Source: Myxococcaceae bacterium
GTDB lineage: Bacteria; Myxococcota; Myxococcia; Myxococcales; Myxococcaceae
Assembly: GCA_019686135.1 (NCBI GenBank)
Contig: JADGHL010000038.1
Location: 1 to 40,125 of the forward strand
Length of the DNA: 40,125 nt
Reading direction: 5' to 3'
Shown in pieces: positions 26,686-40,125 of this stretch (position 1 is its first letter; each line of letters starts with the position of its first letter). The translations under genes were made by a program, and so were the position numbers. Under the pieces are notes generated by a model. It did not search any database. It was not told where the DNA came from and saw only the letters and a list, made by a program, of their open reading frames with translations.

Positions 26686-27879
26686 ATGGCGGTCAGGCTC
26701 ACCGTCAGACAGCGAGGCGCCGGCGCGGCCGAGAAGGCCACCGAGGTGTTGCTGGATGACGACATCATCACGCTCGGGCGCGACAAGTCCTGCCAGGTGG
26801 TGCTGGCGCAGATGGCCGTCTCCCGGTCCCACGCGCGGATCACCCGGGATGGTTCCTTGTTCTTCGTGGAGGATCTCGGCAGCGCCTACGGCACCACCAT
26901 CAACGGCAAGGCGCTGCCCAAAGGCGAAAAGCGCCTTTTGCGCAACGGTGACCTCATCGCGATCGCCCAGTTCGATGTGACGTTCGATCGCGTGGCGGAC
27001 GCGCCCGCGGAGGGCTCGAGCGACAAGACGTCGTTCATCGCGCGGCACGTGGTGAAGGACGTGATGCGGGGGCTGGGCGTCGGGGAAGGTCCCTACTTCC
27101 GTGTGATGAACGGCCCGCGCGAGGGCCAGCGGATCGAGATCCAGGACGCCCAGGAGCTGGTGATCGGCCGTGAGGACGGCGTCGACGTGGTGCTCAAGGA
27201 CGACCTCGTCTCCAGGCGCCACGCGAAGATCCGCCGGGACTGGTCCGGCACCCACGTGGAGGATCTGGGCAGCCGCAACGGCATCCGCGTCAACCGGAAG
27301 CGGGTGACGCGCAAGACCCTCAAGGACCGGGACGAGCTGGAAATCGGCGCGACGCGGCTTCTGTACATCGATCCGTCCGAGGTGCGCGAAACGCCGCTGG
27401 TCCTGGGGAACGGAACGGAGGAAGCGGAGGAACCCGCCGCCCAATCCGCGCCGGATCCTCAACCGTCGGACCAGCATCCGGTGGAGGCCGCCGCCGAATC
27501 GACCGCCGCACAGGACGAGCCCGCCGCCGAAGCAGAGAGCAGCGAGGAGGCCGACGACTCCGAGAGCGCGGAGGAGGCCTCCGAAGACGAAGCCGCCGAA
27601 GAACAAGCCTCGGACGACGAAGAAGAGGACGAAAGCGAAGACGAGTCGCTGGACGAGGACGAGCCCGCGGACGATGACGAAGAGGAGGAGGACGAAGAAG
27701 ACCTCCCGCCGCGCCGGCAACCGTCGAAGGGACGTGGGAAGAAGAGCGGGCGGTCGGCGGCGTTGAACAACATCACCATCGTGGTGAAGGACGTCCGCCG
27801 GCTGGTGCCGATCGTGGTGATGGGGATCGCGGCGATCCTGGCGATCGTCCTGGTGATCGCGATCTTCGCCGGCGCCTAG
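26686..27879 (+). CDS. Tail-anchored protein with two FHA domains
   Basis: The 397 residues comprise a first FHA domain (about 5-105; LGRDKSCQVVL, SRSHARI, GSAYGTTING) and a second (about 135-230; IGREDGVDVVL, SRRHAKI, GSRNGIRVN). Then comes a very acidic Glu/Asp/Ala/Ser stretch (about 245-345), a short basic patch, and a C-terminal membrane helix (about 374-396) that ends the protein. Both FHA domains keep the Gly-Arg, Ser-x-x-His and Asn-Gly residues used to bind phosphothreonine. The T3SS inner-ring protein SctD also has a cytosolic FHA domain before its membrane helix, but this protein lacks the periplasmic part. Its stop overlaps the convergent barrel gene by 4 bp. Confidence 0.85.
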   Translation: MAVRLTVRQRGAGAAEKATEVLLDDDIITLGRDKSCQVVLAQMAVSRSHARITRDGSLFFVEDLGSAYGTTINGKALPKGEKRLLRNGDLIAIAQFDVTFDRVADAPAEGSSDKTSFIARHVVKDVMRGLGVGEGPYFRVMNGPREGQRIEIQDAQELVIGREDGVDVVLKDDLVSRRHAKIRRDWSGTHVEDLGSRNGIRVNRKRVTRKTLKDRDELEIGATRLLYIDPSEVRETPLVLGNGTEEAEEPAAQSAPDPQPSDQHPVEAAAESTAAQDEPAAEAESSEEADDSESAEEASEDEAAEEQASDDEEEDESEDESLDEDEPADDDEEEEDEEDLPPRRQPSKGRGKKSGRSAALNNITIVVKDVRRLVPIVVMGIAAILAIVLVIAIFAGA

Positions 27880-28490: not shown

Positions 28491-28509
28491 TCACCAGCCA
28501 CGACTCACC
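28475..28509 (-). repeat. Heptamer tandem repeats at the sctV stop codon
   Basis: On the + strand five adjacent 7-bp units are seen: CCACTCG, ACTCACC, ACTCACC, AGCCACG and ACTCACC. They overlap the last codons of sctV by a few bases and extend to the start region of the barrel gene. In coding-strand sense the tract contains GGTGAGTCGAGTG, which is identical to 14639-14651 after rho. Confidence 0.6.
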
Positions 28510-30622
28510 GTGTCGAGATGCGCGCGACGGGTTGAATGTTGAGGTCCGGCGAAAGCTCCTGGTAGCTGACCACGCTGAAGGGCGGGTTGAACTCGTATTC
28601 GAGGAGCTTGCGGACGTAGCGGCGGATATCCATCGCCGTGAGGATCACCGGCCGCTGCGCGGACGGCGGCAGATGTCCACATTCGTTCTTCACCGCCTGG
28701 ACGATCTCCTGGGCGATGTCCGGCTCCAGCGCCAGGTGGGTTCCCGCCGAGGTGCGCTTGATGCTGCTGCGGATGGCTTCTTCGATCTGGGGATCGAGCA
28801 GATAGACGACGAGCGTGTTCGTCCCGCGCGCGTACTTGTGGGAGACGTAGCGCTTGAGCGCGGCGCGGACGTGCTCGGTGAGCATCACGTTGTCCGCTTC
28901 GATCTGCCCGAACTCCGCCACCGCCTGGAGCACCCCGCGCAGATCGCGGATGGAGATCTCCTCCTCGGCGAGCCGCTGGAGGATGTCGGTGAGCTTGAGC
29001 ACGCTCACCACCTTGGGGACGACCTCCTTCACGACCGCAGGGAACGCCTTCTCCAGCTGGTCCAGCATCGCCTGGACCTCCTGGACGCCGACGAACTCGC
29101 GCGCGTGCCGCCGCAGCACCGCCGCGAGGTGGAGGATGATGTAGCCGGGCACGTCCCACGTGGTCAGCCCCGCCGCCTCCAGAAGCTCCTTGTGCTCCTG
29201 CGGCACCCACGCAGCCGGTTGCCGGGTGGCCGGGTTCACCGCCTCGAAGCCGTCGATGTTCATCAGCTTCAGGCGGTCGACGGTATCGTTGACGAGGATG
29301 TGATCCAGCGTCGTCTGCCCGGTGACCACCGGGACCTCGTTGATCTGGATCTGGTACGCGCCCGGCGGCAGCGCGGGGTTGGCGCGCGCGCGCACGCCGG
29401 GGAAGCGCACCCCGAGTTCGACGAAGAGGCCGTCGCGCATGAAGGGGATAAGCTCGAAGAGGAAGCGGCCGCCGTCCTGGCGCGAGTCCACATAGGGGAC
29501 GAGCGCGTCGGAGACCTCGAGGACGATCGGCGTGACCATGGGGATGAACAGCTCGGAGTCCGGGTTGACCGGCTCCTTCGGCCCCGGCTCCACCGACTGC
29601 GGCGCCTGTTCGCCCTCGGGGATGGACCCGTCCTCGTCGAGCCCGCCCTCCTCGGCCTGCTTCTGCCGCTTCAGCATCACCCAGGCACCCGCCCCGGCCC
29701 CGCCGCCGAGGATCAGGAACGGGATGGTGGGCAGCCCGGGGATAGCGCCGAGCAACACCAGCATCGCCGCGGCGATCGCGATGGCCTTGGGGTACGCGGT
29801 GAGCTGCGCGCCCACGTCCTTGCCGAGGTGATCGCCCTCGGTGTCGCCCTGCACGCGGGTGACGATGATGCCCGCCGCGGTGGAGATGAGCAGCGCGGGG
29901 ATCATCCCCACCAGCCCGTCGCCGATGGTGAGCAGGGTGTACTTCCTGGCCGCCTCCGCGAGCGGCAGCCCCTTCTGGAGCACGCCGATCACCAGGCCGC
30001 CGACGATGTTCACCACGGTGACGATGATCCCGGCGATGGCGTCGCCCTTGACGAACTTCATCGCGCCGTCCATCGCGCCGAAGAGCGCGGATTCGCGCTC
30101 GAGGTCCCGGCGCCGGCGCTTGCCCTCCTCCATGTCGATCGCCCCGGCCCGGAGGTCCGCGTCGATCGACATCTGCTTGCCGGGCATCGCGTCGAGAGTG
30201 AACCGCGCGGCGACCTCGGCGACGCGCTCCGATCCCTTGGAGATGACGATGAAGTTCACCACCACCAGGATGACGAAGATCACCGCGCCGACGACGAAGT
30301 TGCCGCCGACGACGAACTTGCCGAACGCGGGCACCACCTCGCCGGGGTCGCCGGTGAGCAGGATGAGCCGCGTGGTGCTGATGGTCAGCGCCAAGCGGAA
30401 CATCGTGGTGATGAGCAGCAGCGAGGGGAACACCGACAGCCGGAGCGCGCTCGGCACGTACAGCGAGGTGAGGACCAGGATCACCGAGACGCTGATGTTC
30501 AGCGTCAGCAACAGGTCCAACAGGTGCGTCGGCAGCGGGACGATCATCATCCCGACGATGGCGACGACGGCGAAGGCGAGGACGACGTCCGAGTACTTCG
30601 CCAGGAACGAGTTGGCGTTCAT
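28505..30622 (-). CDS. sctV: Type III secretion export gate protein SctV (FlhA/FHIPEP family)
   Basis: This is the large gate subunit of T3SS export, forming a nonameric ring that receives substrates. The 705 residues start with eight or so membrane helices (about 15-330). The FHIPEP signature is in RLALTISTTRLIL, and the cytosolic loop motif is PGKQMSIDADLRAGAID. A cytosolic domain of about 350 residues follows, with the family segments PGAYQIQINEVPV and YVSHKYARGTN. Length is normal for SctV/FlhA. The start is ATG 30622. It follows a TPR chaperone-like gene by 78 bp. The cluster lacks flagellar structural genes in the window, so SctV is used rather than FlhA; sequence alone does not settle which branch it belongs to. 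Confidence 0.93.
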   Translation of the reverse strand: MNANSFLAKYSDVVLAFAVVAIVGMMIVPLPTHLLDLLLTLNISVSVILVLTSLYVPSALRLSVFPSLLLITTMFRLALTISTTRLILLTGDPGEVVPAFGKFVVGGNFVVGAVIFVILVVVNFIVISKGSERVAEVAARFTLDAMPGKQMSIDADLRAGAIDMEEGKRRRRDLERESALFGAMDGAMKFVKGDAIAGIIVTVVNIVGGLVIGVLQKGLPLAEAARKYTLLTIGDGLVGMIPALLISTAAGIIVTRVQGDTEGDHLGKDVGAQLTAYPKAIAIAAAMLVLLGAIPGLPTIPFLILGGGAGAGAWVMLKRQKQAEEGGLDEDGSIPEGEQAPQSVEPGPKEPVNPDSELFIPMVTPIVLEVSDALVPYVDSRQDGGRFLFELIPFMRDGLFVELGVRFPGVRARANPALPPGAYQIQINEVPVVTGQTTLDHILVNDTVDRLKLMNIDGFEAVNPATRQPAAWVPQEHKELLEAAGLTTWDVPGYIILHLAAVLRRHAREFVGVQEVQAMLDQLEKAFPAVVKEVVPKVVSVLKLTDILQRLAEEEISIRDLRGVLQAVAEFGQIEADNVMLTEHVRAALKRYVSHKYARGTNTLVVYLLDPQIEEAIRSSIKRTSAGTHLALEPDIAQEIVQAVKNECGHLPPSAQRPVILTAMDIRRYVRKLLEYEFNPPFSVVSYQELSPDLNIQPVARISTR

Positions 30623-30700: not shown

Positions 30701-31522
30701 CTACCTTCGGCGCTTGGCGCCTGCGCGGAGGATGTGCACGAGGCGGTGCGCACGTTCGACGAACGGATCGTCCGCCGGGCCTTCGGCGATCACCTGCGCA
30801 AGCTCAGCCATCGCCTGACGCGTGTGACCCTGGTTGATGCGCAGCTCGCTGCGGTAGACGCGCGCGGCGAGGTCGTGCGGATCGAACTCGAGCGCCTCTT
30901 CGAACAGCGCCATCGCGCGGTCCAGCTTCCCCTGCGCCAGGTACACGGTGCCGAGCATCGTGTGCGGGAACGCGTCCGGGGTGCCCAGACCGACCAGGCC
31001 TTCGAACACCACCCTCGCCTCTTCCAGCCGCCCGGTCTCGAAGAGCTGGTGGCCGAACAGGGCCATCTCCGCGAGCTGCCGCCGGGACAGGGTCCGGAGC
31101 GAGTCCGCCGGCGACTTCGCCGCGAGCAGCTCATCGAGCTTCTGCACGTGGTAGCGGAGTGCGGGATCGGTGTCGATCTCCACGCTGAGCCGCCGGCGCG
31201 AAGGAGCGATCCGCCTCGGCCGGTCACGGAGCGTCGTCCGCGTCCCCGGCCGCACCCTGTCCGAGGAGCGCGTCCGCCTGGCGGAGCGCTTCGAGCCCGG
31301 CACCGACACCGCAGGGATCTCCTCGGTGGGCGTGTCGTTCGGATCGGGTCGCTTCGGCGGAGCGTCGTGGTCGCCAAAGTCGGGCTGGAACTCGACGGTG
31401 CGGCCGTCGTGGGCGGGCGCGTCGTGGAGGCTTTGGCGCGGCGCCCGGGTCCGCTTCGGAAAGTAGTAGACCTCCACGCGCCCCGAATGTCTGCCTCCGC
31501 CGGGGCTGCCGGGTTCGGGCAT
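30701..31522 (-). CDS. TPR protein, LcrH/SycD chaperone-like, with basic disordered N-terminus
   Basis: In the 273-residue protein about residues 1-125 are Arg/Pro/Ser/Asp-rich and probably disordered. From about 135 there are three TPR units closely matching the two other TPR genes of this cluster (LAEMALFGHQLFETGRLEEA, then VFEGLVGLGTPDAFPHTMLG). LcrH/SycD-type chaperones stabilise translocators or needle subunits before export. ATG 31522 is chosen as the first start inside coding-like sequence; the frame is open upstream into the next gene. It lies 16 bp after the preceding TPR gene. The long N-terminal extension is unusual for a chaperone, so a structural or regulatory role is possible. 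Confidence 0.65.
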   Translation of the reverse strand: MPEPGSPGGGRHSGRVEVYYFPKRTRAPRQSLHDAPAHDGRTVEFQPDFGDHDAPPKRPDPNDTPTEEIPAVSVPGSKRSARRTRSSDRVRPGTRTTLRDRPRRIAPSRRRLSVEIDTDPALRYHVQKLDELLAAKSPADSLRTLSRRQLAEMALFGHQLFETGRLEEARVVFEGLVGLGTPDAFPHTMLGTVYLAQGKLDRAMALFEEALEFDPHDLAARVYRSELRINQGHTRQAMAELAQVIAEGPADDPFVERAHRLVHILRAGAKRRR

Positions 31523-31538: not shown

Positions 31539-32177
31539 CTACTTCTTGCGGGCCTTGGCGCCCTTCGCCGCCGCCGACTTCGCAGGGGCCTTGCCGTCGT
31601 CCTTCTTCGCCGGCGCCTTGTTCTTGTTCTCGGCCAGCTTCTGGGCCTGCTCCAGCGTCTCCAACGCGGCGGCCGCGAGGATGCGCGCGCGGTGGGAGAG
31701 CGGGTCCTTGTTCTCCGGATCGAGGTCCACCGCCCGCTTGAAGTCATGGGCGGCCTCGATGATCTTGCCCTGCCGCAGATAGACCTCGCCGCGGTTCACG
31801 AACGAGGCGATCTCTTTGTCGTTGAGCGCGATCGCCGCGTTGAACATGTTGAGCGCGTTGTCCAGATCCTCCTGGGCGAGGAACACCGCGCCGAGCGCCG
31901 TCCGGTAGTAGCCCTCCTTCGGGTCGAGCGTACACAGGCCCTGGAAGATGACCTTCGCCTCTTCGTAGCGCCCCTGCTCGTACATGGAGAAGCCGATCAC
32001 CGCCATCTCCAGCATCTCCGGTCCGGAGATCGCGTTGAGCTCCTGAAGGGTGATCTCGCCCCGGAGCCACTTCTCGACCCGCTCGGGCGCGTAGAGGACC
32101 TTGTCCCAATCCGGCGTCACTTCAGGCTTCCGCGCCTCACCCTTGTTGGGGATCACCGGGTTCGAGTTCTCGGCCAT
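31539..32177 (-). CDS. TPR protein, LcrH/SycD chaperone-like, with Lys/Ala-rich tail
   Basis: The 212-residue protein has three TPR units at about 55-160 (LEMAVIGFSMYEQGRYEEA, VIFQGLCTLDPKEGYYRTAL, then ALNMFNAAIALND), the arrangement of class II T3SS chaperones. The C-terminal 35 residues are almost all Lys/Ala, which such chaperones normally lack. The ATG at 32177 lies just below the terminator of the duplicated gene, so this gene needs its own promoter or read-through. Homology to the 33971 and 30701 genes is evident by eye. It could serve the needle-like proteins encoded directly upstream. Confidence 0.7.
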   Translation of the reverse strand: MAENSNPVIPNKGEARKPEVTPDWDKVLYAPERVEKWLRGEITLQELNAISGPEMLEMAVIGFSMYEQGRYEEAKVIFQGLCTLDPKEGYYRTALGAVFLAQEDLDNALNMFNAAIALNDKEIASFVNRGEVYLRQGKIIEAAHDFKRAVDLDPENKDPLSHRARILAAAALETLEQAQKLAENKNKAPAKKDDGKAPAKSAAAKGAKARKK

Positions 32178-32291: not shown

Positions 32292-32993
32292 CTAGCGGAT
32301 GTTGGAGACGATCGACTTCGAGATGTCGCCCATGATCCGCATGATGTTCGAGATGAACATCATCAGGTTCTGGTAGTTCTGCAGCTTGAACTGCGCCTCC
32401 ATCTGCGCGCGCTGGGTCGGATCCTTCACCTTCGACAGCAGGTCGTTCTGCTCCGCGGTCAGCGCGGTGCTGAACGCCTGATCGCTGATCGACCCCAGGA
32501 TGCTTCCGCCAGAGCTCGCCGGCGACGCCGTCGACGCGCTCGAGCTCGACGCCGTCGACGCCGCGCTCGTCGAGGCGATCACGTCCTTGTACGCGCCCGC
32601 GCCGATGTCCGCCGCCAGCGACGCCGCCTGCTGCGCCGACACCTGCGCACGGTCCTTCAGCACCGGCACGTCCACCTTCTGCCCGTCCTCCAGCTGCCGC
32701 TTGCCCTGCAAAAACTCGCCGATCCGCGACAGGAAATCACCGACGCTGTCGATCTTCGCGCCCCAGTTCCCGAGCAGCCCGTTCAGACGCGACAGCGGGT
32801 TGGGCAGCGTCAGGCTGAACGAATCCGAGAAGAGCCCGCCCTTGCCGTCCTTGGAGAACGCCGACTGCGCAAGCTGCTTGAGGATGTCGATCCCGATCTT
32901 GCCCACCGGGTTGGAGGCGATCTCGGAGATGACGTTGGTGACCTTCGGGAGAACCTTGCTGACGATGTTGCCGATGGAGCCGAGGAAACCCAT
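32292..32993 (-). CDS. T3SS-associated secreted-protein candidate, needle-like C-terminus (copy A)
   Basis: The 233-residue product is identical to copy B (33200-33901). It has no signal peptide and no cysteine. The N-terminal half is mildly amphipathic; residues about 145-170 are a Ser/Ala linker. The last 45 residues (from LLSKVKDPTQRAQ to SIVSNIR) resemble the C-terminal helix of needle subunits such as MxiH/PrgI, which have a similar NP-start, a mid-helix Tyr and Asn, and end in I-x-x-N-F-R. Needle subunits are usually about 80 residues, so this would be a long variant; an inner-rod, translocator or effector role is also possible. ATG 32993 has AAGGAG 7 nt upstream; the longer frame enters unrelated leader sequence. 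A GATAAT box at 33063-33068 (minus) lies 69 nt upstream. Confidence 0.72.
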   Translation of the reverse strand: MGFLGSIGNIVSKVLPKVTNVISEIASNPVGKIGIDILKQLAQSAFSKDGKGGLFSDSFSLTLPNPLSRLNGLLGNWGAKIDSVGDFLSRIGEFLQGKRQLEDGQKVDVPVLKDRAQVSAQQAASLAADIGAGAYKDVIASTSAASTASSSSASTASPASSGGSILGSISDQAFSTALTAEQNDLLSKVKDPTQRAQMEAQFKLQNYQNLMMFISNIMRIMGDISKSIVSNIR

Positions 32994-33970: not shown

Positions 33971-34438
33971 CTACTTCTTCGTCAGGGTCTGCAACAGCGC
34001 GGAGATCTTGGCCTTCAGCTTCTCGTCCTCGCCGATCAGCGCCTGCGCGCGCCGGAGGTCCTCCACCGCCGAAGCCTTCGAATTGCTGGCGATCTTGACC
34101 TCCGCCCGGCCCACCCAGACGCCGGCGTCGTTGGGGGCCAGCTTGATGGCCACATCCCAGGCAGAGAGCGCGCCCTGCACGTTGCCGGCGGCGAATTCGA
34201 TCACCCCGAGCGCTTTGGCGAAATACGGCTCCACCGGGTTCACGGCGTACAGCCCCTGAAAGAGCGTCCGCGCCTGGGGGATCTTCCCCTGGTAGAAGTA
34301 GACCCAGGCGGTGCGGGCGATCGCATACAGCTCCTCGTCGGAGTAGCCGCGCACCTCCTTGAGGGTGGCCTTCCCTTCGGCCCAGCGCTGCAGCAGCTGC
34401 TGCGTGCGCTGCTCCTCCGTCTCCTTCGGCGCGCGCAT
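33971..34438 (-). CDS. LcrH/SycD-like TPR chaperone of the T3SS
   Basis: The 155-residue protein has the size and layout of class II T3SS chaperones. An N-terminal helix with KATLKEVRGYSDEELYAIA precedes three TPRs (VYFYQGKIPQARTLFQGLY, FAKALGVIEFAAGNVQGALS, VGRAEVKIASNSKASAVEDL). LcrH/SycD shares the pattern of a GG/KAT-x-L-x-E lead, an LYSLA-like helix and QSGKYEDAHKVFQ-like TPR1. It would bind a secreted subunit in the cytosol; the duplicated protein encoded next is the obvious candidate. Its ATG directly abuts the stop of the upstream gene, implying coupled translation. It is the most chaperone-like of the three TPR genes in this cluster. Confidence 0.8.
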   Translation of the reverse strand: MRAPKETEEQRTQQLLQRWAEGKATLKEVRGYSDEELYAIARTAWVYFYQGKIPQARTLFQGLYAVNPVEPYFAKALGVIEFAAGNVQGALSAWDVAIKLAPNDAGVWVGRAEVKIASNSKASAVEDLRRAQALIGEDEKLKAKISALLQTLTKK

Positions 34439-35274: not shown

Positions 35275-36345
35275 CTACGCCGCCCGGGGGTTCTGCTGCT
35301 TGAGCCCGTAGACGAAGTTGAGCACCTCGGCCACCGCGTCGTAGAGCTCCTCTGGGATTTCGGTGTTCACCTCCACCCGCAACAGCGCGTGGGCCAGAGG
35401 CACGTTGCGGAGCATCGCCACCTCGTGCTCCTTCGCCAGCGCCTTGATCCGTTCGGCGCGGTGGTCGATACCTTTGGCCACGACCCTCGGCGCGCTGTCC
35501 TTCTCGCGGTCGTACTGCAGTGCCACCGCCACGTGGTCCGGGTTGGTGATGATGACGTCCGCGCTCTTCACCGCCTCCATCTGCGCGCTCTCGAGGATCT
35601 CCTGGTGCATCTCCCGGCGCTTGGCCTTGTGGTGCGGGTCGCCTTCGGACTCCTTGTACTCCCGCTTGACCTCCTCCTTGGTCATCATCAGGTCCTTCAG
35701 CCAGGCGCGGCGCTGGAACCACACGTCGAAGATCGCGAAGACCAGGAACAAAAGCCCCACCCGCACCGACACCGTGTAGACCAGATCGCCCAGCACTGCG
35801 AGGATGACTCGGGCGTCCCCGCGGATCGACAGCATCACCTCGGGGAGCGCCCCCTTCACCGCGCCGTACACCACGTAGCCGGCGATGCCGATCTTCAGTG
35901 TCGACTTGAGCAGCTCCACCAGCTGCTTCGTCGACACCAGATTCTTCAGCCCGGCGATGGGGTTGAGCTTCTCCAGCTTCGGGGTGAGCGTCTCCTTGGT
36001 GAAGAGCGGTCCGACCATCAGAAAGTCCATCAGCCCGCCGATCACCGCGGTGGAGACCAGCACCGGGAGCGAGAGCACGATCACCGCGCTCACCCCTATC
36101 CACAGGCTCCTGGGGATGGCCTCCACCAGGCGGTCCGGGTGCGCCGCGTTGTCGAAGGCGAAGTCGAACAACGCGCTGGTGCGCGCGTTCACGGTGTCCC
36201 ACGACGCCTTCACCGCTGCCAGCCCCACGAGGAAGACCGCCACGCCGGTGAGGTCCTTGCTCTTCCAGACCTGCCCCTTCTTGCGTGAGTCGTCGATCTT
36301 CTTCTGCGTCGGTTCTTCGGTCTTCTCGCCGGAGTCCCCGGACAC
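35275..36345 (-). CDS. sctU: T3SS switch protein SctU (FlhB family) with NPDH cleavage motif
   Basis: This is the autocleaving export-gate protein that controls substrate specificity. The 356 residues open with GEKTEEPTQKKIDDSRKKG, the family's N-terminal signature, then four membrane helices (about 35-50, 80-105, 150-170, 185-210) and a cytosolic domain. The cleavage motif reads N268-P269-D270-H271 instead of NPTH; the Asn, Pro and His needed for the reaction remain. Start is GTG 36345: GGGAGGTG stands 8 nt upstream. An ATG at 36352 is out of frame with SctU and is ignored. It follows sctT with a gap of 35 bp and precedes its own C-terminal paralogue. Confidence 0.93.
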   Translation of the reverse strand: MSGDSGEKTEEPTQKKIDDSRKKGQVWKSKDLTGVAVFLVGLAAVKASWDTVNARTSALFDFAFDNAAHPDRLVEAIPRSLWIGVSAVIVLSLPVLVSTAVIGGLMDFLMVGPLFTKETLTPKLEKLNPIAGLKNLVSTKQLVELLKSTLKIGIAGYVVYGAVKGALPEVMLSIRGDARVILAVLGDLVYTVSVRVGLLFLVFAIFDVWFQRRAWLKDLMMTKEEVKREYKESEGDPHHKAKRREMHQEILESAQMEAVKSADVIITNPDHVAVALQYDREKDSAPRVVAKGIDHRAERIKALAKEHEVAMLRNVPLAHALLRVEVNTEIPEELYDAVAEVLNFVYGLKQQNPRAA

Positions 36346-36380: not shown

Positions 36381-37205
36381 CTACCCGAGCCGGCCGATCG
36401 CGTCGTGGAGCATGCGGAACATCGTCTGGAACTCGTGGATGAAGCGGGACGTGAGCAGGTGCAGCGCGACGAGCACCATCAGCACCGCCACCATCGGCTT
36501 GATGCTCATCGAGATGAAGTAGACCTGAATCTGCGGGGCGACCTTGTTGATCATCCCCAGCGACAGGTCGGTGAGGAACGAGGCGAGGATGACCGGCGAG
36601 GCGAGCCCCACCCCGACCAGGAACAGATCCGCGGACACGCGGAGGATGAGGTCGAAGAAGCCCCACATCCCGCCGGACCAGGCGGGGAAGCGATCCAGCG
36701 GGACCGTGCGCAGCGATTCGGCGAGCGCCTCGATCACGATGTGGTGCCCGTGCAGGGTGAGGAACAGCACCACCGCGAACTGGAGCTTGAGGCTGGAGAA
36801 GATCGACACCGTCTGCTGGATCTGCGGCACGTGGAGCTGGGCCATCGCCGTACCGCCCAGGGTATCGGCCAGGCCGCCCGCAACCTTGGCCGCCTCGAAG
36901 ACCATGTTCACCACGAAGGCGATGCAGACGCCGATGAACAACTCCTTGAGCAACACCAGCACGAACGGAAAGGCGCCGGTGGGAATGAGCGTCACCCGGT
37001 CGGCCACGAACGGGTAGAGGACGATCGACAGCATCACCCCCAGGCCGATCTTCACTTCGGTGGGGACCACCTCGCCGCCGAGGAAGGGCGAGAGGATGAT
37101 GACCGGGAGGATGCGGGACATCAGCAACGCCACGGTGAGGATCACCAGCGAGACGTTGACCCGAAGCCCAAACTCCCGGAGCGCGTCGGCGAGATCCGCG
37201 TTCAT
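36381..37205 (-). CDS. sctT: T3SS export apparatus protein SctT (FliR family)
   Basis: This is the membrane protein that closes the SctR5-S4-T1 helical export gate. The 274 residues contain about six hydrophobic segments (LVILTVALLMSRILPVIILS, VLLKELFIGVCIAFVVNMVF, VGVGLASPVILASFLTDLSL). The family signatures LLKELFIG and ASPVILASFLTDLSLG are clear. ATG 37205 starts homology; the longer frame reaches back into sctS. It begins 5 bp after the sctS stop in the order R-S-T-U shared by flagellar and non-flagellar systems. Confidence 0.92.
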   Translation of the reverse strand: MNADLADALREFGLRVNVSLVILTVALLMSRILPVIILSPFLGGEVVPTEVKIGLGVMLSIVLYPFVADRVTLIPTGAFPFVLVLLKELFIGVCIAFVVNMVFEAAKVAGGLADTLGGTAMAQLHVPQIQQTVSIFSSLKLQFAVVLFLTLHGHHIVIEALAESLRTVPLDRFPAWSGGMWGFFDLILRVSADLFLVGVGLASPVILASFLTDLSLGMINKVAPQIQVYFISMSIKPMVAVLMVLVALHLLTSRFIHEFQTMFRMLHDAIGRLG

Positions 37206-37210
37206 CGCCC

Positions 37211-37477
37211 CTACCGGCCGATCATCTCGGGGAAGCGGTCGAACAGCTGGAAGGTGAAGCGCAACAGCTGCGCGCCGATCCACGTGCCCGCCAGCGCCAG
37301 GACCCCGAACACCACCAGCACCTTGGGCGCGAACGTGAGGGTCTGCTCCTGGATCTGGGTGGTGGCCTGGAACACCGAGATGATGAACCCCACCACCAGG
37401 CTCATCACGATCGGCGGAGCCGAGGCGATCAGCACCAGATAGAGCGCTTCCTGCGTGATGAACGTCAGATGGTGCAA
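37211..37477 (-). CDS. sctS: T3SS export apparatus protein SctS (FliQ family)
   Basis: The 88-residue protein has the two hydrophobic hairpins of the FliQ/SctS family: ALYLVLIASAPPIVMSLVVG and KVLVVFGVLALAGTWIGAQL, joined by the conserved FQATTQIQEQTLTFAPK. It makes up four subunits of the export gate. The start at ATG 37477 lies 22 bp after the sctR stop and the stop lies 5 bp before sctT. Size and motifs are fully typical. Confidence 0.93.
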   Translation of the reverse strand: MHHLTFITQEALYLVLIASAPPIVMSLVVGFIISVFQATTQIQEQTLTFAPKVLVVFGVLALAGTWIGAQLLRFTFQLFDRFPEMIGR

Positions 37478-37499: not shown

Positions 37500-38309
37500 T
37501 CACAGGTAGCCAACGACGAGGCCCTTCGCGATCAGGTACCAGCCGTCGACCAGGACGAAGAGCAGGAGCTTGAACGGCATCGAGATGGTGGTGGGCGAGA
37601 GCATGTGCATGCCGAGCGCGAGCAGGATGTTCGCGACCACCATATCGATGACGATGAACGGTACGAAAAGGATGAACCCGATCTGGAAGGCCTCCTTCAG
37701 CTCGGACACCACGAAGGCCGGCGTGAGGATGATGAAGTCGTCTTGGGAGATCCCCTCCTTCTCCTCGGGCGTCTTCCGCATCTTCAGGGCCAGGTTGTAG
37801 AAGAGCGCGCGATCCTTCGACGTGACCTTCTTCTCGAGGAACGCGCGCAACGGCTCCTTCGCAGCGTTGGCGGCCTCGATCACCTGGCCCACCGTCCTCG
37901 ACGAGAAGACGCTGCTGCCCTCGAAAGAGTCCAGGCGTGCGGCCTTGAACATCGCCTGGCCGACCGGCGCCATGATGTAGACGGTCAGGATGATCGCCAG
38001 GCCGGTGATGACCTGCGTCGGCGGGATCTGCTGGGTGCCGAGCGCCGATCGGACGATCGACAGCACCACCGAGATTTTCACGAAGCTGGTCACCATCATC
38101 AGCACGAACGGGACCAGCGACAGCGCCGCCAGCGCGAGGATGAGGACGATCGGCCGGTTGGCGAAGGAGTCGGAGTTCACCGTGGTGCTGGCGATGTCCT
38201 TCGCAGTCTCCAGCGGCATCGCGCCGCTGCGTCCGCGCGGACCGGCGTCCACCACGAGCGGGACCAGGAATGCGGCAAGGCCGTAGAGCAGAGGGAGAAG
38301 CCGTCTCAT
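37500..38309 (-). CDS. sctR: T3SS export apparatus protein SctR (FliP family)
   Basis: The 269-residue protein begins with a cleavable-type signal peptide (MRRLLPLLYGLAAFLVPLVV), as in flagellar FliP, and a short periplasmic-side segment. The gate helices follow: LALAALSLVPFVLMMVTSF, VITGLAIILTVYIMAPVGQ and IGFILFVPFIVIDMVVANIL. The FliP signatures TSFVKISVVLSIVRSALGTQQIPP and LTPAFVVSELKEAFQIGF are present. ATG 38309 overlaps the FliO-like gene in ATGA. A signal peptide and an upstream FliO are flagellar traits; many non-flagellar SctR proteins lack both. Confidence 0.93.
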   Translation of the reverse strand: MRRLLPLLYGLAAFLVPLVVDAGPRGRSGAMPLETAKDIASTTVNSDSFANRPIVLILALAALSLVPFVLMMVTSFVKISVVLSIVRSALGTQQIPPTQVITGLAIILTVYIMAPVGQAMFKAARLDSFEGSSVFSSRTVGQVIEAANAAKEPLRAFLEKKVTSKDRALFYNLALKMRKTPEEKEGISQDDFIILTPAFVVSELKEAFQIGFILFVPFIVIDMVVANILLALGMHMLSPTTISMPFKLLLFVLVDGWYLIAKGLVVGYL

Positions 38310-39022
38310 GGATCCTCGGTGCTGCGGGCAGGGGGTTCGTTCTGCGCGGACGACGGCGACGGCGTGGACCGCGCGAGCAGCTTCTGGAGGAAGGGGCTGG
38401 GCTTTGACGCCGTGGGCTGCCGCTGCGAAAGCAGCTTCTGCACCTCGTCCGGCGGCAGCTTCGAGATCAGCGTGAGGTTCTGGTCCGCGCCGCCCACCAG
38501 CAGGTACTCGCCGGCGGCCTCGATCACGAAGAGCGTGCGCTTCGGATCGAGCGGCACCCGCTCCACCACCTTGACCAGTGCCGCGCGCCCCAGCATCGCG
38601 CCGCGCGCGCCCATCAGCTTGCGCAGCCCGTAGTTGAGCGTGACGTAGACGAGCCCGATCACGATCCCCAGGGACAGGAACATCTTCCACAGCGTCCCGA
38701 GCATGCTCTCGGGATCGGGGTTCCCGTCCGGGTCGGGGGCGGCGAACGGATCGTCGGTGAGATCGTCCGAGCCGGTGCGCGCCGCCGCCTGCCGCGCCGT
38801 CCCCACCTGCACCGGTGCCGCCGCCTGCACGTCGTCCGCGCCCGGCTCCACCGCCGACGGTGAGGGCGCCGCAGCCGGTGCGGCCGGCGGGACCTGGGCG
38901 CTGCGGTCCAGAGAACGCGTCGTCGACAGGAAGGGCGCGGGCGGAGGCGCCTCGTCCGCGGCGGGCGCCGCGACCGAGCCCAGGGCGATGCCGAGCGCCG
39001 CCGCCCGGAGGAAGTGGTTCAC
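38306..39022 (-). CDS. FliO-like export-gate assembly protein
   Basis: The 238-residue protein has a signal-peptide-like start (NHFLRAAALGIALGSVAAPAA), then a Pro/Ala-rich linker (about 25-100) and one membrane helix (MFLSLGIVIGLVYVTLNYGL). A FliO-type cytosolic domain follows: LVKVVERVPLDPKRTLFVIE, then GEYLLVGGADQNLTLISKLP. FliO scaffolds FliP5 ring assembly in flagella and is generally missing from non-flagellar T3SS. Its coupling to sctR by a 4-bp overlap supports the assignment. GTG 39022 is chosen because it starts the signal peptide; the frame is open to GTG 39103, adding 27 residues with no obvious signal. Either start is possible. Confidence 0.78.
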   Translation of the reverse strand: MNHFLRAAALGIALGSVAAPAADEAPPPAPFLSTTRSLDRSAQVPPAAPAAAPSPSAVEPGADDVQAAAPVQVGTARQAAARTGSDDLTDDPFAAPDPDGNPDPESMLGTLWKMFLSLGIVIGLVYVTLNYGLRKLMGARGAMLGRAALVKVVERVPLDPKRTLFVIEAAGEYLLVGGADQNLTLISKLPPDEVQKLLSQRQPTASKPSPFLQKLLARSTPSPSSAQNEPPARSTEDP

Positions 39023-39109: not shown

Positions 39110-39582
39110 CTACCGGAGGTGGACGGTGATCCTGCCCTGCGCGGAGGCCCGGTGGAGCTCAATCACCACCGCGTTGCCGGGCTTCTTTGGCAGGCTCAGC
39201 GCCGCGTCGGGTGAGGTGAGCGCCAGCCCGTTGAGGCGGGTGACCACGTCGCCGTTGCACAGACCGACGCGCGCAAGGCCCGAGCCCGCCCGCACCGCGA
39301 AGAGCTTCATCCCGATCGCCTGACCGTTCTCGAACGCGGGGACGATCCGCACCTGCGAGGCGACGCCGTTCGGATCGTCCAGCGCACGCTGCAGGTCCGC
39401 TCGAAGCGCGCTCGTCTCGAACGGCAGCGCCGGGCAGGCATCGGCGGTCGTCTGCCGCCCACCGTCCGGCGGCTTCGCCGCCCCCGGCTCCGCAGCTCGA
39501 CGACACCGGGCGGAGCGACGAGCTCCTCCAGGTCGGCGTCGAAGTCCTCGCCTCCGCTTTCACGGTCCGCGCCCAGCGACAC
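39110..39582 (-). pseudogene. GspC-like PDZ protein, frameshifted at a poly-C run
   Basis: The last 85 residues (39110-39360) form a GspC-type PDZ domain: VRIVPAFENGQAIGMKLFAV, GSGLARVGLCNGDVVTRLNG, SPDAALSL. GspC is the type II secretion protein whose periplasmic parts contact the secretin. Upstream the same protein continues in another frame (VSLGADRESGGEDFDADLEE, VAPPGVVELRSRG). The two join if the C5 run at 39481-39485 had six bases, giving SRG-AAKPPDGG-RQTTADACPALPF. The lesion may be real, a sequencing error, or slippage-based switching. GTG 39582 is the first start in the upstream frame; GTG 39620 would need a second lesion. No membrane helix is visible. It lies 6 bp before the FliO-like frame's longest start. 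Confidence 0.6.
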
Positions 39583-39626: not shown

Positions 39627-40125
39627 CTACCCTGCCATCGAGAGGATGCGGACCCCAAGGTGACCCTCCACCTCCACCAGCTCGCCGCGGGCGACGATCT
39701 TCCCGTTCACCGACAGCTCCACCGGTTCGCCGGGGATGCGGTTGAGGTCGATCACCTGGCCCACGCGCAGCGAGACGACCTGTTCGGCCGTGACCGGGAC
39801 GCGCGCCAGCTCCACCGCGATCTGCAGCGGGATGTCGTTCAGGAGCTCTCCACCTTCTCTCAGCGTCGTCTCGTCCACGATGTTCCTCTCGCCGACTGCG
39901 CGGGACCCACTGGGGTTGGTGCTGTCCTCGTCGGGCCCATCGACCCCATCGGCTTCTGCAGACGCATCCTCGCCGCCCTCGGCGCGCGCCGCCAGCGCTT
40001 CCGCCGCCTGCTCCTCCTGCTCGCCCGGCTCCGCGTGGCGCGCGGCTTCGCCGAACACGAATTGGGTGATCTTCGCGCGGTACCGCCCGTCCTCGACGAA
40101 CACCTCCGCGACCATCCGCCCCACC
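39627..40125 (-). CDS. sctQ: T3SS C-ring/sorting-platform protein SctQ (FliN/SpoA family), 5' end cut off
   Basis: The visible 165 residues run off the right edge, so the N-terminus is missing. The last 75 residues are a SpoA (FliN-type) domain: DIPLQIAVELARVPVTAEQV, LRVGQVIDLNRIPGEPVEL, NGKIVARGELVEVEGHLGVR, ILSM. Before it is an acidic Glu/Ala/Asp-rich linker (about 30-90) and a short strand segment (AEVFVEDGRYRAKITQFVFG) that may close a first SpoA domain. SctQ forms the cytosolic platform that gathers substrates for the ATPase. It is the first T3SS gene of the minus-strand run in this window; more T3SS genes may lie beyond the edge. Confidence 0.85.
   Translation of the reverse strand, partial: VGRMVAEVFVEDGRYRAKITQFVFGEAARHAEPGEQEEQAAEALAARAEGGEDASAEADGVDGPDEDSTNPSGSRAVGERNIVDETTLREGGELLNDIPLQIAVELARVPVTAEQVVSLRVGQVIDLNRIPGEPVELSVNGKIVARGELVEVEGHLGVRILSMAG

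Follow-up and report, generated by a model that had tools for sequence, protein, structure and literature searches.

The window analysed here is an entire contig (C133) of 40,125 nucleotides from a Myxococcaceae draft genome of 5.5 Mb (245 contigs, 97% complete). It carries a cluster of T3SS genes (Table 1) that ends in sctQ, which is cut by the right end of the contig. The N-terminal part of sctQ was found on contig C46, followed by genes for a FliK/SctP-type protein, SctO, SctN, SctL, a FliG_C-domain protein, SctJ and SctI, and then for a FliA/WhiG-type sigma factor, a TPR protein and a further needle-domain protein. The ends of C133 and C46 have no common overlap of at least 10 bases; the two contigs probably join, as sctQ is undivided and the gene order identical in relatives. 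The whole cluster is syntenic across related loci. A second system, on contig C226, has the order sctQ-fliO-sctR-S-T-U-V; its small fliO-like ORF was assigned from position, with no profile match behind the assignment. Elsewhere in the window, a large membrane protein with a degenerate internal repeat was observed.

Table 1. Features of the window and of the contigs and loci discussed in the text (positions given without a contig or locus name are those of the window).
Feature	Position	Strand	Evidence or remark
sctQ, N-terminal part	contig C46, L012:1-1026		single gene in relatives
sctQ, C-terminal part (SpoA domain)	39627..40124	-	PF01052 2.7e-20
Short PDZ-like ORF	39110-39352	-	below Pfam cut-offs
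FliO-like protein, 238 aa	38306..39022	-	PF04347 2.1e-12; 47.4 bits vs cut-off 22
sctR, signal-peptide-like N-terminus	37500..38309	-	FliP family 1.4e-69; 4-base ATGA shared with fliO
sctS	37211..37477	-	fliQ and fliQ_rel_III each above cut-off
sctT	36381..37205	-	fliR 1.3e-46, SctT 9e-35, each below cut-off
sctU	35275..36345	-	SctU 370 bits vs cut-off 358 (above)
FlhB/SctU C-terminal-domain paralogue (FlhX-like), 96 aa	34969..35259	-	PF01312 4.7e-27
Conserved coiled-coil protein, 160 aa	34439..34921	-	56-73% identity to relatives
TPR protein, candidate T3SS chaperone adjoining needle-domain genes	33971..34438	-	TPR families; synteny
Needle-domain (SctF-like) protein, copy 2, 233 aa	33200..33901	-	PF09392 4.6e-7, above gathering cut-off
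Needle-domain (SctF-like) protein, copy 1	32292..32993	-	699/702 bases identical to copy 2
LcrH/SycD-type TPR chaperone	31539..32177	-	TIGR02552 4.2e-23, below equivalog cut-off
TPR protein	30701..31477	-	Pfam-type family match and gene call
sctV	28505..30622	-	hrcV 821 bits vs cut-off 692; FlhA 690 vs 772 (below)
SctD-like protein	26686..27879	+	PF16697 Yop-YscD_cpl 1.2e-29; FHA 2.6e-36
Membrane protein, 869 aa	15011-17620	+	Ala/Asp/Gly-rich repeat (LAGDPLAGD...)
FliA/WhiG-type sigma factor	contig C46, L012:8045-8812	-	adjoins sctI; kept in relatives
Second needle-domain type, 148-216 aa	contig C46, L012:9780-10430	-	hydrophobic mid-stretch; near sctI in T3SS*
Orphan needle-type gene, 74 aa	contig C117 15834-16058 (L134:9835-10059)	-	PF09392, residues 10-73, E 0.0018
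Short needle-type gene, M. xanthus AM003	L055 6954-7178
DUF1521 protein, M. xanthus AM003 T3SS* locus	L055:7443-8609	+	GDPH motif

The earlier note had singled out a FliO-type gene overlapping sctR by 4 bp and a signal peptide on SctR, and both were recovered. The FliO-like protein is laid out as a signal peptide, a Pro/Ala-rich periplasmic stretch, a TM segment and, behind it, the FliO domain; it also matched TIGR03500 (1.2e-12), below that model's cut-off. The N-terminus of SctR (MRRLLPLLYGLAAFLVPLVVDA followed by GP), judged by eye, resembles a cleavable signal peptide, and a segment of similar kind is kept in SctR of relatives (e.g. ...LHPLIALA followed by EKK). Across related loci, sctR is adjoined by a FliO-like gene in 61 of 71. 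The LcrH-type chaperone reported earlier is likewise present, though below the equivalog cut-off. The FliO-like gene and the signal-peptide SctR are thus real, yet they are published T3SS* features: FliO has been described in both M. xanthus NF-T3SSs (PNAS 2025, PMC12403147), and the Myxo systems have been placed as basal and intermediate, or 'transitional' (Abby and Rocha 2012, PMC3459982), so the finding as first posed was already known. In the interval between fliO and sctQ, we also observed a short PDZ-like ORF that is unmatched in 80 related loci.

SctV, SctU, SctR and SctN scored above the non-flagellar equivalog cut-offs and below the flagellar ones; for SctR, the values were 231 versus a cut-off of 208.6 with TIGR01102 (yscR) and 207 versus 217.5 with TIGR01103 (fliP). 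The SctJ profiles leaned towards the non-flagellar side, SctS and SctT were ambiguous, and both SctV copies of the genome fell below the FlhA cut-off. The SctV/FlhA tree set T3SS*, T3SS(2) and rhizobial systems apart, at 100/100, from the 20 flagellar proteins included, of which Myxococcota contributed 16. The window contains no flagellar gene, as the earlier note had stated for flagellin, hook, rod and motor genes, and a rod/hook search with PF00460 gave no match in the whole genome, while flagellated controls did match. Beyond the right edge, where inspection had been proposed, the adjoining contig holds sctJ, sctN, sctL and sctI and no rod or hook genes. With non-flagellar SctRSTUV, SctN, SctJ, SctL and SctQ together in a single conserved cluster, the window locus is, by its sequence, the myxobacterial T3SS* locus (a name reportedly due to Thiery et al. 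2022), and is non-flagellar according to SctV phylogeny.

This cluster nevertheless has flagellar-type parts, namely FliO and the SctR signal peptide within the window and, beyond it, the FliG_C protein, a FliM-like N-terminal part of SctQ, a FliK-type domain and the FliA/WhiG-type sigma factor. The last of these, which adjoins sctI, is a possible dedicated regulator of T3SS*. FliO, the SctR signal peptide, the FliG_C protein and the sigma factor would also suit a degenerate flagellum, that is, a flagellar export gate whose filament was lost in the lineage. We rejected this explanation as extremely improbable: SctV lies outside every flagellar FlhA at 100/100, those of Myxococcota flagella included, the profiles of SctV, SctU, SctR, SctN and SctJ prefer non-flagellar models, and flagellated relatives have such systems besides their flagellum. 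The suggestion of a mosaic or transitional system is supported in part, as a non-flagellar cluster with flagellar-type parts, with 'transitional' being consistent though previously published. The clade check, made with SctV, agrees with the non-flagellar placement given in the earlier note; whether the myxobacterial systems branch first is not settled by this tree, in which the branching order of T3SS*, T3SS(2) and rhizobial systems came out unsettled.

The protein in the sctK position scored above the FliG_C cut-off (PF01706) in all five loci tested (3e-9 to 3e-5). FliG also led the PDB search with its profile, with a weak E of 0.034, and took the first 13 places in a fold search with its model (best E 1.1e-3); whole-chain TM-scores were about 0.2, the support for FliG coming solely from E-value ranking and domain matches. 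The SctD-like protein is composed of two FHA domains, an acidic linker and a C-terminal TM segment, with no periplasmic part; since it ends in this hydrophobic segment, it has no ring in the periplasm that could contact a secretin. No secretin was found in the T3SS* locus, which is split over two contigs with a small gap possible. Three secretins are encoded in the genome, all off the T3SS contigs, including one with Tad-secretin architecture and a BON domain (contig C225) and one that is GspD-like (contig C63).

In the two near-identical proteins encoded beside the TPR genes, which the earlier note had missed, the needle domain spans residues 175-232 of 233 and scores just above the PF09392 cut-off (30.4 versus 29.4); these proteins are larger than needle size. 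Homologues were found at the corresponding spot, which is bounded by the first TPR gene on one side and by the second TPR gene or sctV on the other. Their length is 62-75 aa in Myxococcus, Pyxidicoccus, Corallococcus, Citreicoccus, Hyalangium and Archangium; other lineages, known from MAGs, have forms of 170-240 aa. Tandem copies were seen in Archangium lansinium (six), Hyalangium (four), Citreicoccus (three) and Pyxidicoccus (three), and the genes lie opposite the operon strand in M. xanthus, Myxococcus sp. CA023 and Pyxidicoccus. Of the loci that extend this far, nearly all have a needle-type gene after the TPR gene; in two (L058 and L069), the flanking genes are present and no needle was detected. 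Many draft contigs stop just past the first TPR gene, which could stem from tandem repeats. All ORFs inspected had plausible ribosome-binding sites, mostly GGAG, and dN/dS was about 0.26-0.36 in close pairs, distant pairs being uninformative.

Other needle-type genes were observed outside this position. The orphan copy on contig C117 encodes a protein with 59% identity to the window needle domain, and is adjoined by genes for a 272-aa protein of no known family and a histidine kinase. A second needle-domain type, near sctI in T3SS*, lies directly beside sctI in T3SS(2) loci L137 and L138 and could be a translocator or tip protein. Moreover, large expansions of profile matches were seen in some Myxococcota, with 32 matches in genome G100 and 14 in G118; the examples listed sit within long open frames.

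The needle assignment was examined with profiles against 177,635 PDB sequences. With a 21-member profile, matches included 7y6c_F (2.3e-5), MxiH (2.9e-4) and PrgI (2.5e-3); the record of 7y6c_F is labelled as a co-chaperone, and the 43 residues of its sequence align in the manner of a needle C-terminus. Three repeat proteins also ranked amid the needles, merely by summing sub-significant repeats. A profile of ten short proteins gave five matches up to E = 10, all of them needles (best 2.2e-4). In a control set of 1181 ORFs from eight reference loci, rhizobial and E. coli K-12 loci among them, the sole significant match was the annotated Bradyrhizobium needle (1.1e-9; 2e-6), the next being at 0.3; Bradyrhizobium SctI gave no significant match in this set. 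When an E-value of up to 1 was allowed, PF09392 was matched by nine of the 21 profile members and the HrpA pilin family by two. PF09392 exceeded its cut-off in one of 96 family genomes, the source genome, and the new profile matched 95 of the 96, the remaining genome being without sctR too. At the phylum level, the profile was absent from four genomes that have one FlhA-family match each, of flagellar type, and a hand cross-tabulation of 19 genomes without SctV/FlhA found it absent in 16 and present in three.

These three genomes would fit convergence, in which short amphipathic helical hairpins acquire a needle-like profile through composition, as would the low individual Pfam scores: singly, the short proteins had no match in Pfam/NCBIfam, and the 74-aa copy had no significant phmmer match in the PDB (best 0.55, a needle chain). 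The AlphaFold needle monomer, of low confidence (pLDDT 58) and too weak for a fold search, points the same way. We nonetheless hold convergence to be distinctly improbable, given the near-exclusive needle matches in the PDB and control searches, the fixed position of the genes in the locus and the absence of the profile where T3SS is absent or flagellar only.

LcrH-type chaperones usually serve translocators, and some long members weakly match the SseC translocator family or WXG100, which makes a translocator or tip role possible for them. Both observations suit a truly needleless NF-T3SS, already known and with its published FliO, whose small helical proteins would be translocator, tip or rod substrates. 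Such a system agrees with the published view of T3SS* as needleless, without secretin, needle or translocon (PMC12075869, PMC10433427), and with the argument that SctF, if present, should have been found (Abby and Rocha 2012, PMC3459982). It appears unlikely to us, as the PDB and reference-locus searches yielded needles rather than translocators or rods, sctI exists as a gene of its own next to sctJ, and the proteins measure 62-75 aa in many genera.

What was less expected is that T3SS*, supposedly needleless, has genes resembling those of a needle subunit, which are conserved and frequently duplicated. As SctF-type proteins are encoded, in tandem and flanked by TPR genes, the label 'needleless' is probably wrong, and from these genes we infer that T3SS* may build a needle. 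T3SS* is published as having no needle subunit gene, but both the window locus and that of M. xanthus encode SctF-type proteins; we read this as a putative correction of the T3SS* description rather than as placing either locus outside the family. Needle genes in T3SS* were unreported in the searchable literature up to 2025, in which locus-tag searches used guessed M. xanthus tags.

Overall, we consider it probable that the locus encodes a T3SS* with a FliO-aided gate, FliG_C at the SctK position, a ringless SctD and SctF-type needle-domain proteins. In such a system, FliO would have its flagellar role, that of a membrane chaperone or stabiliser of the SctR-SctS-SctT export gate. The FliG_C protein, in the place of SctK, would couple SctD/SctJ to SctQ, and SctN, SctL, SctO and SctQ would pass substrates to SctV and SctU. 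The TPR proteins might keep the needle-domain subunits until export, which SctV/SctU would carry out early or first, and the exported subunits could polymerise into a needle or a periplasmic filament. With no secretin in the locus, the outer-membrane channel would come from elsewhere; our guess, from a published functional link, is the Tad/Kil secretin.

M. xanthus needs T3SS* (MXAN_2434-2464) to lyse prey, and T3SS* works together with the Tad-like Kil system (PMC10433427, PMC12075869). Papers of 2023-2025 leave open how this system affects prey if it has no needle; from the missing SctF it had been inferred that T3SS* cannot deliver proteins. If the SctF-type genes in the locus are functional, that inference falls and the needle predates the split of the myxobacterial systems. 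In the M. xanthus AM003 locus, we also observed a DUF1521 protein (metal-ion-inducible autocleavage), a domain family in common with T3-secreted NopE1. Such proteins also lie near TPR and needle-type genes in L014, L015, L020, L023, L026, L033, L035, L061 and L082. DUF1521 occurs in 46 of 96 family genomes and is absent from the source genome; the T3SS*-locus protein is a candidate secreted substrate.

Among known systems, the window locus is like the M. xanthus T3SS* ('Myxo' NF-T3SS) in gene content, order, FliO, LcrH-type chaperones and lack of a secretin; that system is described as needleless and FliG-less, whereas the window system has SctF-type genes and a FliG_C protein. With the flagellar FliO-FliP-FliQ-FliR gate, it shares fliO beside sctR and the FliP/SctR signal peptide, but it is without rod, hook and filament genes, and its SctV, SctN, SctJ and SctU are of non-flagellar type. 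The sctK-position protein is like flagellar FliG in its domain and leading fold matches, but has a long low-complexity tail here and sits with sctJ, sctL and sctN, with no rod or hook genes. Unlike canonical SctF (MxiH, PrgI, YscF and Bradyrhizobium SctF), the myxobacterial needle-type genes occur as two to six near-identical tandem copies in several genera, have 170-240-aa forms in some lineages, the window included, and stand in a locus without a secretin; their short forms are like canonical SctF in size, C-terminal helix pattern and profile, and both have a TPR protein gene nearby.
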